From: Alphaproteobacteria bacterium | GTDB lineage: Bacteria; Pseudomonadota; Alphaproteobacteria; Micropepsales; Micropepsaceae | Assembly (NCBI GenBank): GCA_947467345.1 | Contig: CANIHD010000020.1 | Coordinates: 1 to 52,697, forward strand | Length of the DNA: 52,697 bases | Direction of reading: 5' to 3' | Shown here: piece by piece, positions 40,740-47,577 of the stretch | How positions within the stretch are numbered: the first letter of the stretch is position 1 | Layout: each line of letters starts with the position of its first letter | Translations under genes and position numbers: made by a program | Notes under the pieces: model-generated | The model's input: only the letters and a program-made list of their open reading frames with translations | The model's database searches: none | What the model was told of the DNA's origin: nothing

Positions 40740-41291
40740 TCAGGCGGCCTGCTGCACCGAAGGACGCACCGCGTCTTCCGCCGCCAGTGTCACAGATACC
40801 GAGAAAATAATTGCCGCGACGCGCACCGCATCTTGAATAGCTTCCTTTGCGACGCCCGCTTTGAGGAGAACATCCTCATGCGCTTCGATGCAGCGGCCGC
40901 ATCCATTCACGGCCGAAACCGCAAGCGACCAGAGCTCAAAATCCACCTTCTCGACGCCTGGATTGGCGATCACATTCATGCGCAGCCGCGCCGGTAGCGT
41001 GAGAAAATCCGGGTTCTTCGCCAGATGCGTGAAGCGGTAATAGATATTGTTCATCGCCATAATCGCCGCCGCCGAGCGCGCGGCAGTCATCGCCGCTTCA
41101 GTGAGATGCGCGGCAGCGGTCGCTTCCGCAGCGCGAATGACGTCAGCGTTGCGCGATGCGATGGAAGTCGCCACCACCGTGCCCCAAAGCTGCTGCGGCG
41201 TCAGCGTTGTGATGTTGCTGATTCCGCTCAGATTGAGACGAATATCTTTGGCGTAGTCGGGAATACGGTTTTTTAGATCATCGAGAGACAT
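40740..41291 (-). CDS. ahpD: AhpD-like alkylhydroperoxidase (carboxymuconolactone decarboxylase family)
   Basis: AhpD is a peroxidase and also the electron donor that re-reduces AhpC, where the flavoprotein AhpF is absent. The 183-residue all-helical protein has the redox motif [11 protein letters not shown] with Cys131 and Cys134 and the proton-relay His138, as in the Mycobacterium enzyme. The start at 41291 is chosen because AhpD proteins begin MSLDDLK-like. It lies 83 bases after ahpC on the same strand, and no ahpF is visible, which supports the pairing. Confidence 0.93.
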
Positions 41292-41373
41292 GGAAATTCC
41301 TCGTGTATTTGAGGGCAATCCTCACCCGCGCGAGTGCGACGGGTGAGGACGCCATTCTCGTTATGCGGCCCGC

Positions 41374-41919: not shown

Positions 41920-41930
41920 CGGGGCAACTC

Positions 41931-41947
41931 CTTAGAATGTTTCTAAG
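41931..41947. promoter_or_regulatory. Irr-type inverted repeat over the ahpC start site
   Basis: CTTAGAATGTTTCTAAG is a perfect 7-base inverted repeat with a 3-base centre. It matches the Irr iron-control element I know as TTTAGAA-N3-TTCTAAA at all inner positions. It begins at the last base of the ahpC -10 box and covers the start of transcription and part of the ribosome site, a repressor position. A PerR-like Fur-family protein is the alternative binder. Confidence 0.65.
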
Positions 41948-41975
41948 TTATGCCACTCCTCGACGGCCCCGTCAA
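41947..41975 (-). promoter_or_regulatory. ahpC promoter (sigma-70 type)
   Basis: On the minus strand TTGACG (41970-41975) and CATAAC (41947-41952) are exactly 17 bases apart. Transcription should start near 41940, inside the adjoining inverted repeat, about 20 bases before the ATG. Confidence 0.75.
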
Positions 41976-42075
41976 CCGACCTGCGACTTATTATCACTCC
42001 AATAAAGGAGTGGTGTGGGATTTCCAGTGATCTCCGGAAATAGGGTCATCCTTCCGTGACATTTCGATACATTTT

Positions 42076-42094
42076 GCGATTGATAATTACTCGC
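42076..42094 (+). promoter_or_regulatory. Fur-like box upstream of the TonB-dependent receptor
   Basis: GCGATTGATAATTACTCGC is an imperfect 19-base palindrome with seven of nine pairs. A TAATAT (42100-42105) follows as a likely -10 element, so a bound repressor would block the promoter. A related sequence occurs at 47805. Confidence 0.45.
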
Positions 42095-42138: not shown

Positions 42139-44550
42139 ATGTTTGAAGTCCGCACGAGCCTTGCTGTCCGTAACCGCGCCGCCTTTAAGGCACGCCTGAC
42201 GATGGCGGCTTCCAGCGCCGCCCTCGCCGCCGCGCTCTTCCCGGTCCACGCTTTGGGTCAGGAACAAGCGGAAGCTGAAGCCAAAGCACCGACGCAAATC
42301 GCAGCCGCACAGCCCGCTCCGCAGCAGGCTGCGGCGCCGGCCAACGGACCGCTGCAGCTTGGCCCGCTCCGGCTTGAGGCCGACGAGGAACAGGAAGTCG
42401 AGTCGCCCAAATACACGGGTCCGCTTCTCGACACTCCGCAAACCATCACCGTGGTTCCAGCCGAGACGATCCGCCAACAGGGCCTTTTGAACCTGCGCGA
42501 TATTCTTGCAACCGCGGTTCCCGGCATCACCTTCACCGCCGGTGAAGGCGGCGGCGGCTACGGCGACGGCATCAATCTTCGCGGCTACAGCGCCAACAAC
42601 GACATCACCGTCGATGGCGTTCGTGACAGCGCGCAATACACGCGCTCAGACCCGTTCAATCTGGAACAGATCGAAATCACCAACGGTTCCAACTCGGTCT
42701 ATTCCGGTTCTGGCTCGGTCGCCGGCAACATCAACATTGTCTCCAAAGTGCCCGTCGGACAGGAATATATCCGTGGCACCATCGGCGGCGGTACCGACAA
42801 ATATGGCCGCGTCACGCTTGATGCCGAACAACAAGTCATGGACGACGTTTTTGTCCGCCTGAATGTGATGGGCCATCGGAATGACGTTCCCGGCCGCGAT
42901 GTCGAAAAAGCCGAACGCTGGGGCGTTGCGCCATCCGTCGCATTTGGTATCGACACCGATACGCGTGTCACGCTGGCTTACATTCATCAACATGATAAAA
43001 ACGTTCCGCAATATGGCGTGCCGTATTACGCGGTCGCTGGCGGCCTTATCGAAGGTGCAAAATCCAGCAATTATTATGGTTATGCCAATCTCGATAAGCA
43101 GCAGATCGATGTCGATTCTTTCACGCCGATCCTGAACCACGATTTCAATGATCGCTTCTCGGTGCGCAATCTCACCCGCTATCAGGAGGTGACGCAGCTC
43201 AGCATCGTCGATCCGCCGCAAGGCACGTGGTGTTTGGCGTCAACCAATTTGACGCCGCTTGGCGCTAGCTGCGCCGGCGTCGCACCAGGATTTTTCCTAC
43301 CGTCAGGCCCGCGTGGTACCACACGCGATACGAAAAACACGCTGCTCTCCAACCAGATGGATTTCCGCGGGCAATTCGCCACCGGTTCGCTGGCCCACAC
43401 CGCGGTATTGGGTTTCAGCTTCGGCAACGAAACCTACCATCTCGATACGGGTAACTCGCTTCGCAATCCGCGCGGCGTAACGCCCAACCCCGTGCTGCCG
43501 ACGATGAACATCGCAGACCCGAATAACGTTTACTCGGGGCAGGTGAACTTCATTCAGACAGGTTTCTCCGATGGCGAGCTGCGCAATCGCGCCGTCTATT
43601 TGTTCGACAATATCGCGCTTAGCGAGCAGTTCGAATTCAACGGCGGCATTCGCTTGGAACACAACGAGGGTAAATTCTCGACTGCGACAATCGCGGTTCC
43701 TTATCCAGCCCCACCTGCTTTGCCTGTTGTGACCGTTGCGGCGCCGGGCAGAAACGAAGAGACGCTGTTCTCCTACCGCGCAGGACTTGTCTACAAGACG
43801 ATCGAGGAAGCCAGCCTTTATGTCGCTTACGGCAATGCACAAACACCGTCGCAGGCATCGGTGAATGGCGGTTGTGCGCCCGTCAGCACCAGCGCCACCA
43901 ACCCTGCCACCTGTAACGTCAAACCGGAAAAAGCTCGGAACATTGAAATTGGCGGCAAGTGGGACTTCAACGGAACGATGGTGCTCACCGCGGCGCTCTT
44001 CCGCAACGAACGCACCAATTATCGCGTTCCGTCGGGCGACCCGCTTATTCCTGACGCTACGCTTGATGGACGAGCGCGCGTCGATGGTATCGCGCTAAGC
44101 GCGACGGGCCGCATCACCGACCAGTGGGAAGTGACTGCGAACTACACCTATCTGGACAGCGAAGTGCTTCAAAGCGTGTCGGATGCTGTTCGTGAATCAG
44201 GCGGTATCGACGCGTCGAAGGGCAATCCACTGACGGGCACGCCGGAGCATGCGTTCAGCCTATGGACGACCCACGACGTTTTGGAAAACCTGACGCTTGG
44301 TTTCGGAACGACCTACCAAGGCTCGTTCTATCTCAACAACGCAGCGCCGCCGCTCTTCCAGTCGGATGCCTACTGGCTGCTACGGGCTTCGGCTTCATAC
44401 CGGTTCAACGAGAATATCGAAGTGCAGCTCAACGTGAACAACATCACGGATGAGGTCTATTACAACCGCATCCGCAACAATGGTTGGGCCACGCCAGGCG
44501 ACGCTCGTTCTGCCATTCTGACGGTCAATTTCGCTTATCAATCTCCCTAA
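42139..44550 (+). CDS. TonB-dependent catecholate siderophore receptor (Fiu/PiuA-like)
   Basis: An 803-residue outer-membrane receptor for ferric siderophores or catechol-type iron. It has a signal peptide (to about residue 41), a Gln/Ala-rich stretch, the plug domain (LDTPQTITVVPAETIRQQGL, INLRGYSANNDITVDGVRD, NLEQIEITNGSNSVYSGSGS) and a 22-strand barrel ending VNFAYQSP-like rather than in Phe. Plug features are those of Fiu/CirA-like receptors. A PiuC-type hydroxylase gene follows at 90 bases, as in the piuA-piuC pairing of Pseudomonas and fiu-ybiX of E. coli. A Fur-like box is upstream. Confidence 0.92.
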   Translation: MFEVRTSLAVRNRAAFKARLTMAASSAALAAALFPVHALGQEQAEAEAKAPTQIAAAQPAPQQAAAPANGPLQLGPLRLEADEEQEVESPKYTGPLLDTPQTITVVPAETIRQQGLLNLRDILATAVPGITFTAGEGGGGYGDGINLRGYSANNDITVDGVRDSAQYTRSDPFNLEQIEITNGSNSVYSGSGSVAGNINIVSKVPVGQEYIRGTIGGGTDKYGRVTLDAEQQVMDDVFVRLNVMGHRNDVPGRDVEKAERWGVAPSVAFGIDTDTRVTLAYIHQHDKNVPQYGVPYYAVAGGLIEGAKSSNYYGYANLDKQQIDVDSFTPILNHDFNDRFSVRNLTRYQEVTQLSIVDPPQGTWCLASTNLTPLGASCAGVAPGFFLPSGPRGTTRDTKNTLLSNQMDFRGQFATGSLAHTAVLGFSFGNETYHLDTGNSLRNPRGVTPNPVLPTMNIADPNNVYSGQVNFIQTGFSDGELRNRAVYLFDNIALSEQFEFNGGIRLEHNEGKFSTATIAVPYPAPPALPVVTVAAPGRNEETLFSYRAGLVYKTIEEASLYVAYGNAQTPSQASVNGGCAPVSTSATNPATCNVKPEKARNIEIGGKWDFNGTMVLTAALFRNERTNYRVPSGDPLIPDATLDGRARVDGIALSATGRITDQWEVTANYTYLDSEVLQSVSDAVRESGGIDASKGNPLTGTPEHAFSLWTTHDVLENLTLGFGTTYQGSFYLNNAAPPLFQSDAYWLLRASASYRFNENIEVQLNVNNITDEVYYNRIRNNGWATPGDARSAILTVNFAYQSP

Positions 44551-44640
44551 GACTGTGTCGCTGCTCGGCCCCGCCCCTCAAAAGGGGGTGGGGCCGAACG
44601 CTTTTCAGTGGCATATAAAGGCACTCCGAGGGTCGCCATC

Positions 44641-45324
44641 ATGATGCTGAGAATCCCCAACGCGCTCACTAAGACGCAAGTTGCTGAATGCCGAGCGATC
44701 ATCGATGCCGCCGAATGGATCGACGGTAACGTCACGTCGGGTCATCAATCGCGCGAAGCAAAATCGAATATGCAATTGCCTGAGCGCTCGGAAGCCTCGC
44801 GCAAGGCTGGCGATCTCATTTTACGCGCGCTTGAGCACTCGGCTCTCTTCGTTGCGGGCGCGCTGCCGCTGAAAGTCTTTCCACCTTTGTTCAACCGCTA
44901 TGCCGGCGGGCAGCTGTTCGACACCCATGTCGACAACGCGATGCGCGAATTGAAAGGCACAAATTTCCGCATCCGCAGCGATCTTTCGGCCACGCTTTTT
45001 CTGACCGAGCCGGAGGCCTATGACGGCGGAGAACTTGTGGTGGAAGACACTTACGGCACGCACAGCGTGAAGCTGCCGGCGGGAGATCTGATCATCTATC
45101 CCGCTTCGAGCCTGCACCACGTTACGCCCGTCACGAAGGGCGCACGCGTGTCGTCGTTCTTCTGGCTTCAAAGCATGGTGCGCGAAGATGCGGCGCGCGG
45201 ATTGTTGTTCGATCTCGATATGGCGACCCGTCGAGTCGCGGCCGAAAAAGGCCATAAAGACCCAACCGTGATTCAGCTGACTGGCATCTATCACAATCTG
45301 CTGCGGCGCTGGGGCGACAGCTAG
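44641..45324 (+). CDS. piuC: PKHD-type 2-oxoglutarate/Fe(II) hydroxylase (PiuC/YbiX)
   Basis: A 227-residue dioxygenase of the PiuC/YbiX group, always found with TonB-dependent iron receptors; its substrate is still unclear. The iron ligands are His96 and Asp98 in FDTHVDNA and His159 in [12 protein letters not shown], and Arg169 binds 2-oxoglutarate. [15 protein letters not shown] near the start and [15 protein letters not shown] at the end are family signatures. The ATG at 44641 is preferred, with GAGGG nine bases upstream. It probably shares transcription with the receptor, unless the GC-rich hairpin between them stops it. Confidence 0.93.
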
Positions 45325-45380
45325 AGCCTCTTTCACCCTCATCCATAAAGGAAGAGGAATTCTCGGCACTCTTCATCTTC

Positions 45381-45409
45381 TGGATGGCCCGCTTTTGCGG
45401 GCCATGACA
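45381..45409 (+). repeat. Hairpin repeat family 2, copy 1
   Basis: Contains the perfect hairpin ATGGCCCGC-TTTT-GCGGGCCAT with short flanks. The full 29 bases recur exactly, in inverted orientation, 76 bases downstream. The same hairpin text is a common dispersed repeat in alphaproteobacteria (from memory). Confidence 0.75.
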
Positions 45410-45485
45410 CTAGTTAGCTAGTGGCGCGGGCGTTGGTGTGCGAGTGACGAAGTAAGCAGGCCGTTTACGATCCCGCTTTTAAATC

Positions 45486-45514
45486 TGTCATGGCCCGCAA
45501 AAGCGGGCCATCCA
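45486..45514 (-). repeat. Hairpin repeat family 2, copy 2 (inverted)
   Basis: Exact 29-base reverse complement of the copy at 45381, so the two can fold separately or pair with each other to form one long stem. Confidence 0.75.
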
Positions 45515-45598
45515 GGTGACGCGTCCAAAGCGCTGAAGTTAAAGCTTCGAGCCTCCTCCTATCAGGGAAGAAGGATGTACGAGCGCTAAGACGCGCAA

Positions 45599-46360
45599 TC
45601 AGCGCATATTGATTTCGAGGGGCAGTGAGAACTCAAGTTGATCGCCGAATTCGATCGGCAGAGACGGTAACGGCTGCGCCCGCATGACGATGGCGACGGC
45701 CTCTTCGTCCAATTCATCTGAACCGGAACTCTCAACAACTTTGCAATTCAACGCGTGACCTTGGCGATCCACCGCAAAGGACAACACGACAACCGCCATA
45801 TCCCCGCGCCCATGGCCACCACGCCCACCACGGGCGCGGCCACCGGGACCGCCACGCCGGACGGTGAAATTGCGCTTGCTGCGTTCCAGATGATCTTGGA
45901 CTTTCCGCCCAAAGGCGATGCGCATATCGGGACGAATGCTGGGACCTGCCGCGCGCGCCGGTTGCGGGTTGTTCACGACATTAGGCGGCGCCGGCGGTAT
46001 CGCAATCGCCGTTTCAGAAGGCGGTGGCGGTGTCGTCAGAACAATTTCCGGCATAACGGGAACAGGCACGAACGGCAGCGGGGGCGGTTCGAACTCCGGC
46101 GGCGGCGGCGGCTCGGGAATATCCTTCTCCGGCTCGGTGCTCATAGACACGGTGAGCGTTTGCGGCACCGGTTTGTGGAATACCGGCCCCGCGAACACAT
46201 AACCAACCACGAGCAATACGTGGATGCTGGCAACACCGATAATGCCCGCGGGACTGAACCTGCGCGTATGCGACGGCGGCTGATACGCGAACGCCGACAT
46301 CGGCGTCGCTACAGGCGGCGCTACGCTGCTCTCAGGTTCAAAGGGCGCGTACATATTCAT
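45599..46360 (-). CDS. tonB: Energy transducer TonB
   Basis: TonB passes proton-motive energy from ExbBD to outer-membrane receptors. The 253-residue protein has a cytoplasmic start of about forty residues, one transmembrane helix with the S-x3-H pattern (SIHVLLVVGYVFAG), a Pro/Glu-rich periplasmic spacer and a C-terminal TonB domain (VVLSFAVDRQGHALNCKVVESSG, RAQPLPSLP). Between the spacer and the domain is an unusual Arg/Gly-rich insert (RRGGPGGRARGGRGGHGRGD, about 168-187). It is translationally coupled to the upstream PepSY gene (ATGA overlap). No exbB or exbD is adjacent. Confidence 0.92.
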   Translation of the reverse strand: MNMYAPFEPESSVAPPVATPMSAFAYQPPSHTRRFSPAGIIGVASIHVLLVVGYVFAGPVFHKPVPQTLTVSMSTEPEKDIPEPPPPPEFEPPPLPFVPVPVMPEIVLTTPPPPSETAIAIPPAPPNVVNNPQPARAAGPSIRPDMRIAFGRKVQDHLERSKRNFTVRRGGPGGRARGGRGGHGRGDMAVVVLSFAVDRQGHALNCKVVESSGSDELDEEAVAIVMRAQPLPSLPIEFGDQLEFSLPLEINMR

Positions 46361-47577
46361 TCCGCCGGAGCACCCTCCAAGCCATCATCGCTGATGGGGG
46401 CGTTGGCGGCTTTGCGCTTGCGCTTGATCCACCACATGGCGGTGCCGGTGACCATGAAGAGCGGCGGCATCAGCCCCGACAAGAACACCAGTGCCTTATA
46501 AATAAAGCCCAGGCCTTGGCCATCATGCAGCGGACGCTGCCAGCCCATGAACATGCTGCCGGCGACTTCACGCGGATCGCGCACGGTGAGAATGCTGCCG
46601 CGATAAGGATCGATACTGACATTGACCTGCGGCACGCCGCGAAGACTCGACGAGGCAAAATTCGCGCGCATCGGTTGGTCGGCTTCCATAGGCAGGAACG
46701 CCGCCGTCAGCCGCAAATCGCCCACGCGTTCGCGCGCGACTTCGAGGCCTCTTTCCAGGCTGATGCGCTCCCCGCCCGGAATGGGCTCAAACTGCGCACC
46801 GCCGCCACCGAACGGTCCTCCTTGCGGTGCCGGCGCGCCGACCATTGCGGAAATGGTTTGCGGAAACGAGATCGCCACACCCGAAAAACACACAACGACA
46901 AAGATGGCCCAGCCCCAGATGCCGACCGCGCCGTGAAGCTGGCGATGTAGCGGATACCCACCTCGGCTTTTCACCGTAAATGCGGCTCCGAAGCGGCCGT
47001 TGCGCGGCCACCAGAGAACGATGCCGGTGATGCCGAGCAAGGTCATGCCGACGCCGAGCCAACCAACGACGCTGCGGCCTTCCCGCCCGCCGATCTGCAG
47101 GCTGCCGTGCAGCTGATGATTGAAATCGGAAAGTTCGGTGCGGTTGCGACCGCGCTCGCCTAGCACTTCGAGCGAAACCGGATCTACGTAGATTTGCGGC
47201 CCGCCAAACGCGCCGCCCGGGCCACCGGGACCGCCACGACCGCCGCCGCGCGCCTGCTCAGCACCGGGTTGCTGAGCGCGAGCGAGCCGCACGACGGCCG
47301 GAAGCCCTTCACGCGCAGGCATGGTGATGGAAGCGGGCACAAAACCGTCGCGCCCCGCGGCACCTGCCGCAAGGATAGCGGCCGGTGCGGCAAACGCGCC
47401 TTGCGCAGTTGCGGCCGGAACCGTTTCAAAATCTTGGTCGTAGACGAGATAGCTGCCGGTGATCCCAAGGATCGCGAAGGGGATACTCAGGATCAAACCA
47501 ATCCAAAGGTGAACCTGAAACAGCACGCGGCGAAGCGTGAGCGGATTGCGAATGCGCGGACGCGATTGAGAACTCAT
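46357..47577 (-). CDS. PepSY-associated membrane protein (PiuB-like, iron-regulated)
   Basis: A 406-residue inner-membrane protein of the PepSY_TM family, which includes PiuB and related iron-uptake proteins thought to reduce or release ferric iron in the periplasm. It has about four helices: VHLWIGLILSIPFAILGITG, the WLGVGMTLLGITGIVLWWPR pair, WGWAIFVVVCFSGVAIS and LPP-type end GLMPPLFMVTGTAMWWIKRK. Conserved histidines occur as RRVLFQVHLW, LHGSL and LHRQLHGAVG. Two periplasmic stretches are very Gly-rich (GGGRGGPGGPGGAFGG and GGPFGGGG), echoing the insert in the adjoining TonB. It is first in the operon with tonB. Confidence 0.88.
   Translation of the reverse strand: MSSQSRPRIRNPLTLRRVLFQVHLWIGLILSIPFAILGITGSYLVYDQDFETVPAATAQGAFAAPAAILAAGAAGRDGFVPASITMPAREGLPAVVRLARAQQPGAEQARGGGRGGPGGPGGAFGGPQIYVDPVSLEVLGERGRNRTELSDFNHQLHGSLQIGGREGRSVVGWLGVGMTLLGITGIVLWWPRNGRFGAAFTVKSRGGYPLHRQLHGAVGIWGWAIFVVVCFSGVAISFPQTISAMVGAPAPQGGPFGGGGAQFEPIPGGERISLERGLEVARERVGDLRLTAAFLPMEADQPMRANFASSSLRGVPQVNVSIDPYRGSILTVRDPREVAGSMFMGWQRPLHDGQGLGFIYKALVFLSGLMPPLFMVTGTAMWWIKRKRKAANAPISDDGLEGAPAE

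Follow-up and report, generated by a model that had tools for sequence, protein, structure and literature searches.

In this study, the palindrome at the start of the ahpC-type peroxiredoxin gene in a 52,697-nucleotide contig of an alphaproteobacterium of the family Micropepsaceae (hereafter, the window) was analyzed, and it is very probably an operator at which Irr represses ahpCD as part of a small, PerR-like Irr regulon of peroxide defence. The palindrome, its scarcity in the genome, its co-occurrence with Irr, the genes behind it and the conserved metal ligands are computed results; binding, repression and the signal are what we infer.

The predicted ahpC operator, its probable promoter and the ahpCD genes

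The element CTTAGAATGTTTCTAAG is a 17-mer inverted repeat with 7-nt arms that are 100% complementary and a 3-nt spacer. Its core is an exact TTAGAA-N3-TTCTAA, which we take to be the Irr box consensus and which agrees with the spelling in the original prediction, and it lies near the promoter. When the window was scanned for CTTAGAATGTTTCTAAG with up to 3 mismatches, the sole match was the site itself, and shuffles predicted 0.04 matches (sd 0.20); together with the perfect arms, this indicated that the palindrome proposed at ahpC is real. On the minus strand, the order of elements is TTGACG, 17 nt, CATAAC, TTAGAAACATTCTAAGGAG, 8 nt and the ATG of ahpC (41919). The operator has one base in common with the -10 box and, at its other end, runs into the AAGGAG ribosome-binding site, which lies 8 nt from the ATG; the end of the box itself lies 12 nt from the ATG. 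The -35/-10 layout put forward earlier was therefore correct, and the interval given with it (41931-41975) did hold promoter plus operator, but the operator proper takes up only 17 nt of it. The promoter had also been called clear, which its agreement with the consensus does not bear out. A strict sigma-70 scan listed no promoter at ahpC, because CATAAC lacks the final T, and 9 of 12 consensus positions matched by our own scoring; the promoter is weak against the consensus, yet appears plausible.

Table 1. Features of the ahpCD region and of the neighbouring receptor gene (positions in the window)
Feature	Position	Strand	Remarks
ahpD (alkylhydroperoxidase), second gene	40740..41291	-	NCBIfam ahpD 235.5 bits, cut-off 192
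ahpC-type peroxiredoxin, 181 aa	41374..41919	-	Pfam AhpC-TSA 1.2e-38
ahpC ribosome-binding site AAGGAG	41928..41933	-	overlaps the operator
Irr box (iron control element), predicted operator, CTTAGAATGTTTCTAAG	41931..41947		core TTAGAA-N3-TTCTAA at 41932-41946
Probable ahpC promoter	41947..41975	-	-35 TTGACG (41975-41970), 17-nt spacer, -10 CATAAC (41952-41947)
Fur-like palindrome before the TonB receptor, GCGATTGATAATTACTCGC	42076..42094		not part of the Irr operator

The ahpC product scored 150 bits with the NCBIfam AhpC equivalog, which is below the cut-off of 272, and the query that gave the NCBIfam score of ahpD began two codons inside the gene start. The gap of 82 nt between ahpC and ahpD contains a strong stem-loop with 10-nt perfect arms (41319-41349, minus strand), and its folding energy is -35.6 kcal/mol (z -3.5). 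As no T-run follows this stem-loop, it is perhaps an mRNA stabiliser or an attenuator that sets AhpC above AhpD.

Regulators and boxes in the genome and in relatives

The assembly searched comprises 2.49 Mb and is 96.3% complete, and exactly two Fur-family (FUR-domain) proteins were found in it. The original prediction had asked for an Irr or PerR protein in the genome, and the protein on contig 11 is an Irr that exceeds the cut-offs of both NCBIfam Irr models (IrrA NF045678, 209 bits against 150; Irr NF045677, 195 against 170). The protein on contig 19 matched Fur models best, under their cut-offs. No PerR gene was found, since the best NCBIfam PerR model gave 70 bits against a cut-off of 250 over both Fur-family proteins, and the PerR alternative in the original prediction falls away with this result.

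The contig 11 Irr sequence has a single cysteine that stands outside any Cys-Pro motif, and it lacks the heme regulatory motif, which in B. japonicum Irr is a Cys-Pro motif; this absence is a point against the proposed reading. The HxH heme-binding motif is present, and its H100 and H102 do not vary among 26 sequences. Moreover, the five metal ligands of PerR (H37, D85, H91, H93 and D104, as listed in PMC4700492) align to H46, D94, H100, H102 and D113 of Irr, all of which are invariant among the 26 Irr sequences. This match does not make the contig 11 protein a PerR, as the ligands are common to Irr generally, and it is not new, having already been published for B. japonicum Irr, which keeps the PerR ligands and in which the matching histidine is oxidised (PMC4700492). 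Neither KatG nor a true rubrerythrin was found in the assembly, the single rubrerythrin-family Pfam match being a COQ7 protein. Among LysR proteins, one exceeded the cut-off, with two cysteines about 100 residues apart, and two were weak partial matches. OxyR carries a close redox cysteine pair, and no OxyR-like LysR was recognised by eye in the 96%-complete assembly through this general LysR search.

The exact TTAGAA-N3-TTCTAA occurs at two sites in the 2.49 Mb: one belongs to ahpC, and the other lies upstream of irr, 71 nt from its ATG; the genome scan for the motif that had been suggested as a check thus led to the genome's own irr gene. Two further boxes have one mismatch; one is 50 nt upstream of dps, and the other follows the 3' end of irr and precedes purU (contig 11, 56753-56767). 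At up to two mismatches, 24 sites were found in comparison to 53 in the reversed control, and for this reason the own-genome list was ended at one mismatch; within that limit, no further iron or heme gene has a box. Sites with two mismatches were rejected as regulon members on the same count. Of the 20 sites at exactly two mismatches, ten were read: six fell within ORFs of 140 codons or more, and the other four had no adjacent iron or peroxide gene by eye.

Across 61 genomes (own included), the exact box was present in 38, and the reversed control gave a match in only one of the 37 genomes of the window's family. The best 80 of 574 confirmed ahpC stretches were taken as named loci, for which a box was sought up to 250 nt upstream and Irr anywhere in the genome; Irr exceeded the cut-off in 41 of the 80. 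Among these best 80 of 574 loci, 20 of the 41 Irr-positive genomes had a box with at most one mismatch at ahpC, as against none of the 39 Irr-negative ones (Fisher 9.6e-8), a difference inflated by relatedness, as most of the genomes lacking Irr are not alphaproteobacteria and the loci are related, so that the counts are not independent. When the comparison was drawn with the 10 Irr-negative loci titled Alphaproteobacteria, Rhodospirillales or Roseomonas-type genera, the counts were 20/41 and 0/10 (p = 0.004). The ahpC box was seen solely in genomes with Irr among the best 80 of 574 loci, which upheld its earlier attribution to Irr. The remaining 21 of the 41 Irr-positive genomes of this set lacked any ahpC box within one mismatch, and the tie between ahpC box and Irr is common, not universal.

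In relatives, boxes with at most one mismatch were found within 300 nt upstream of katG (15/26), irr (13/30), dps (9/25) and ahpC (8/22), and the expectation from 50 base shuffles per locus was about 0.04 for these sets taken together. Furthermore, the 3-nt spacer gave 20, 8, 13, 15 and 9 loci in five promoter sets; each of the remaining spacers between 0 and 10 gave 0-1, and the remaining 59 permuted half-sites gave 0-3 matches per promoter set. The genes that share the box, namely dps and irr in this genome together with the katG and rubrerythrin genes of relatives, suggest a peroxide regulon more than general iron control.

The surroundings of irr were also compared. A second box 3' of irr was present in 25 of 30 irr loci, and in 23 of the 30 a box separates irr from a neighbouring rubrerythrin (19) or katG (4) gene. 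As boxes in the same place precede these genes, the box before purU may have been left behind when a gene was lost; it may otherwise control purU. In nine irr promoters of relatives, a conserved GTTTTGAGYTATTCAAAA occupies a similar place in lieu of the Irr box, and it is perhaps a diverged Irr box or the site of another regulator.

Proposed mode of action and other explanations

An Irr dimer on the palindrome would mask the start site together with the adjoining end of the -10 box and a portion of the ribosome-binding site, and repression is therefore the likely effect: Irr on the box would block RNA polymerase and ahpCD expression would be low. Irr would leave the DNA once it binds heme when iron is plentiful, or once peroxide oxidises its His/Asp metal cluster; repression would then end and AhpC and AhpD would be made. 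Peroxide could act on Irr either directly or via heme, and the ligand match together with the histidine oxidation in B. japonicum Irr makes direct action possible. According to a review, Irr occupies its boxes in the heme-free state and can act as repressor or activator depending on box position (PMC7762939). In R. sphaeroides, the putative start of mbfA lies inside the Irr box, mbfA expression is higher in the irr mutant, this mutant is more peroxide-resistant, and Irr boxes are known at the rubrerythrin-like mbfA and at the cytochrome c peroxidase gene (PMC3413700). The known peroxide resistance and these two boxes make the proposed peroxide regulon less surprising. The same source reports weak target binding by Irr, at about 800 nM, and judges an effect on katE to be indirect (PMC3413700), which counts against the proposed reading.

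A bolder form of the proposal is that in this lineage, where no OxyR was recognised in the present genome, Irr has changed from an iron/heme regulator into the peroxide sensor of the cell, with a core regulon of ahpCD, katG, dps, rubrerythrin and irr, and that Fur keeps iron uptake and storage, which would amount to a convergent PerR system based on Irr. We hold this tentatively and lean somewhat against it. A true PerR at the ahpC site would also suit the gene set at the boxes, which includes peroxiredoxin, Dps and the regulator's own gene, with KatG and rubrerythrin in relatives; it is extremely improbable, as the two FUR-domain proteins of the 96%-complete assembly are the only ones and both fall far below the PerR cut-offs. 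Repression by Irr has a point against it in the katG boxes of several relatives, which sit directly upstream of a TTGAC sequence, where Irr may do something other than simply repress. Irr might bind and activate ahpC, or the real promoter might lie elsewhere and the box act otherwise. The dependence of the Irr effect on box position (PMC7762939), the 9/12 consensus match with no promoter in the strict scan, and the location of the ahpC box within the -35/-10 spacer in several relatives are in keeping with this. However, the box in the window lies over the -10 box, the start and the ribosome-binding site, and at 12 nt from the ATG it leaves no space for a downstream promoter, so that activation or another promoter seems very unlikely.

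The contig 19 Fur might instead be the main regulator of ahpC, acting either on the palindrome itself or on a weak Fur-like element with 2 mismatches (41983-42001) directly upstream of the ahpC -35, and Irr would then be minor. This explanation gains from the TGCGAATGACTTGCA-like element (up to 2 mismatches) that precedes the Irr box by 21-22 nt in 11 named box-bearing ahpC loci; given this element beside the box, dual control may well operate in these 11 loci. Nevertheless, Fur-like matches as a class are at noise level in the genome (40 at up to 3 mismatches, 41 in the reversed control), the corresponding element of the window (41983-42001) among them, and the palindrome of the receptor and ferritin-family genes is unlike TTAGAA-N3-TTCTAA, which tracks Irr. 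Fur as the main regulator is thus considered quite unlikely, and Irr remains the preferred regulator of ahpC. An exact TGCGAATGACTTGCA is present in 7 ahpC loci, where it precedes the Irr box at that distance of 21-22 nt and overlaps the likely -35, and joint control by Fur/Mur and Irr is possible at these loci.

The original prediction had pointed to an iron receptor across the gap from ahpC. The TonB receptor gene (42139-44550) carries its own, different palindrome, the Fur-like GCGATTGATAATTACTCGC, and for that reason its nearness is no evidence. The next best copy of GCGATTGATAATTACTCGC in the genome has 1 mismatch and is found some 170 nt upstream of a ferritin-family gene; judged solely by resemblance, GCGATTGATAATTACTCGC is probably a site for the genome's Fur. 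The region from 42139 to 47577 encodes a Fiu-like TonB receptor, a PKHD-type hydroxylase, a TonB C-terminal protein and a PepSY_TM protein, and is a probable iron-uptake cluster.

Comparison with known systems

A genome-wide prediction of alphaproteobacterial iron regulons was reportedly made by Rodionov and others in 2006. No title or abstract retrieved by the literature searches reported Irr control of ahpC, katG, dps and rubrerythrin together, and the 2006 prediction or RegPrecise may list them. A target set with peroxide genes first appears to be a variant of the Irr regulon for which no earlier description was found, a 2006 listing being possible. The ahpCD peroxide-defence operon would be tied to an iron/heme regulator, and by comparative genomics this tie is found in many alphaproteobacteria and takes in katG, dps and rubrerythrin as well. 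The arrangement offers a direct test case of whether Irr can sense peroxide in bacteria without an evident OxyR.

In many proteobacteria, ahpC is under OxyR, and the present arrangement is similar in that a dedicated regulator would stand over a peroxide-defence operon; it differs in that the sole LysR over the cut-off in the general LysR search has distant cysteines and no close redox pair. The PerR regulon of B. subtilis contains a peroxiredoxin, Dps, catalase and its own gene. The likeness to PerR lies in this regulon content and in the five aligned metal ligands, whereas the regulator here is Irr by family models, has one cysteine only and no CxxC zinc motif, and its box is TTAGAA-N3-TTCTAA. 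The regulator family and the box type are those of Irr at B. japonicum blr7895/bfr and at R. sphaeroides mbfA and ccpA, both of the R. sphaeroides targets being linked to oxidative defence (PMC3413700), and an Irr box over the start site is shared with mbfA. Unlike in the known Irr systems, the box is predicted to serve ahpCD, dps and irr in this genome, with katG and rubrerythrin added in relatives, and the ferritin-family gene carries a Fur-like site.
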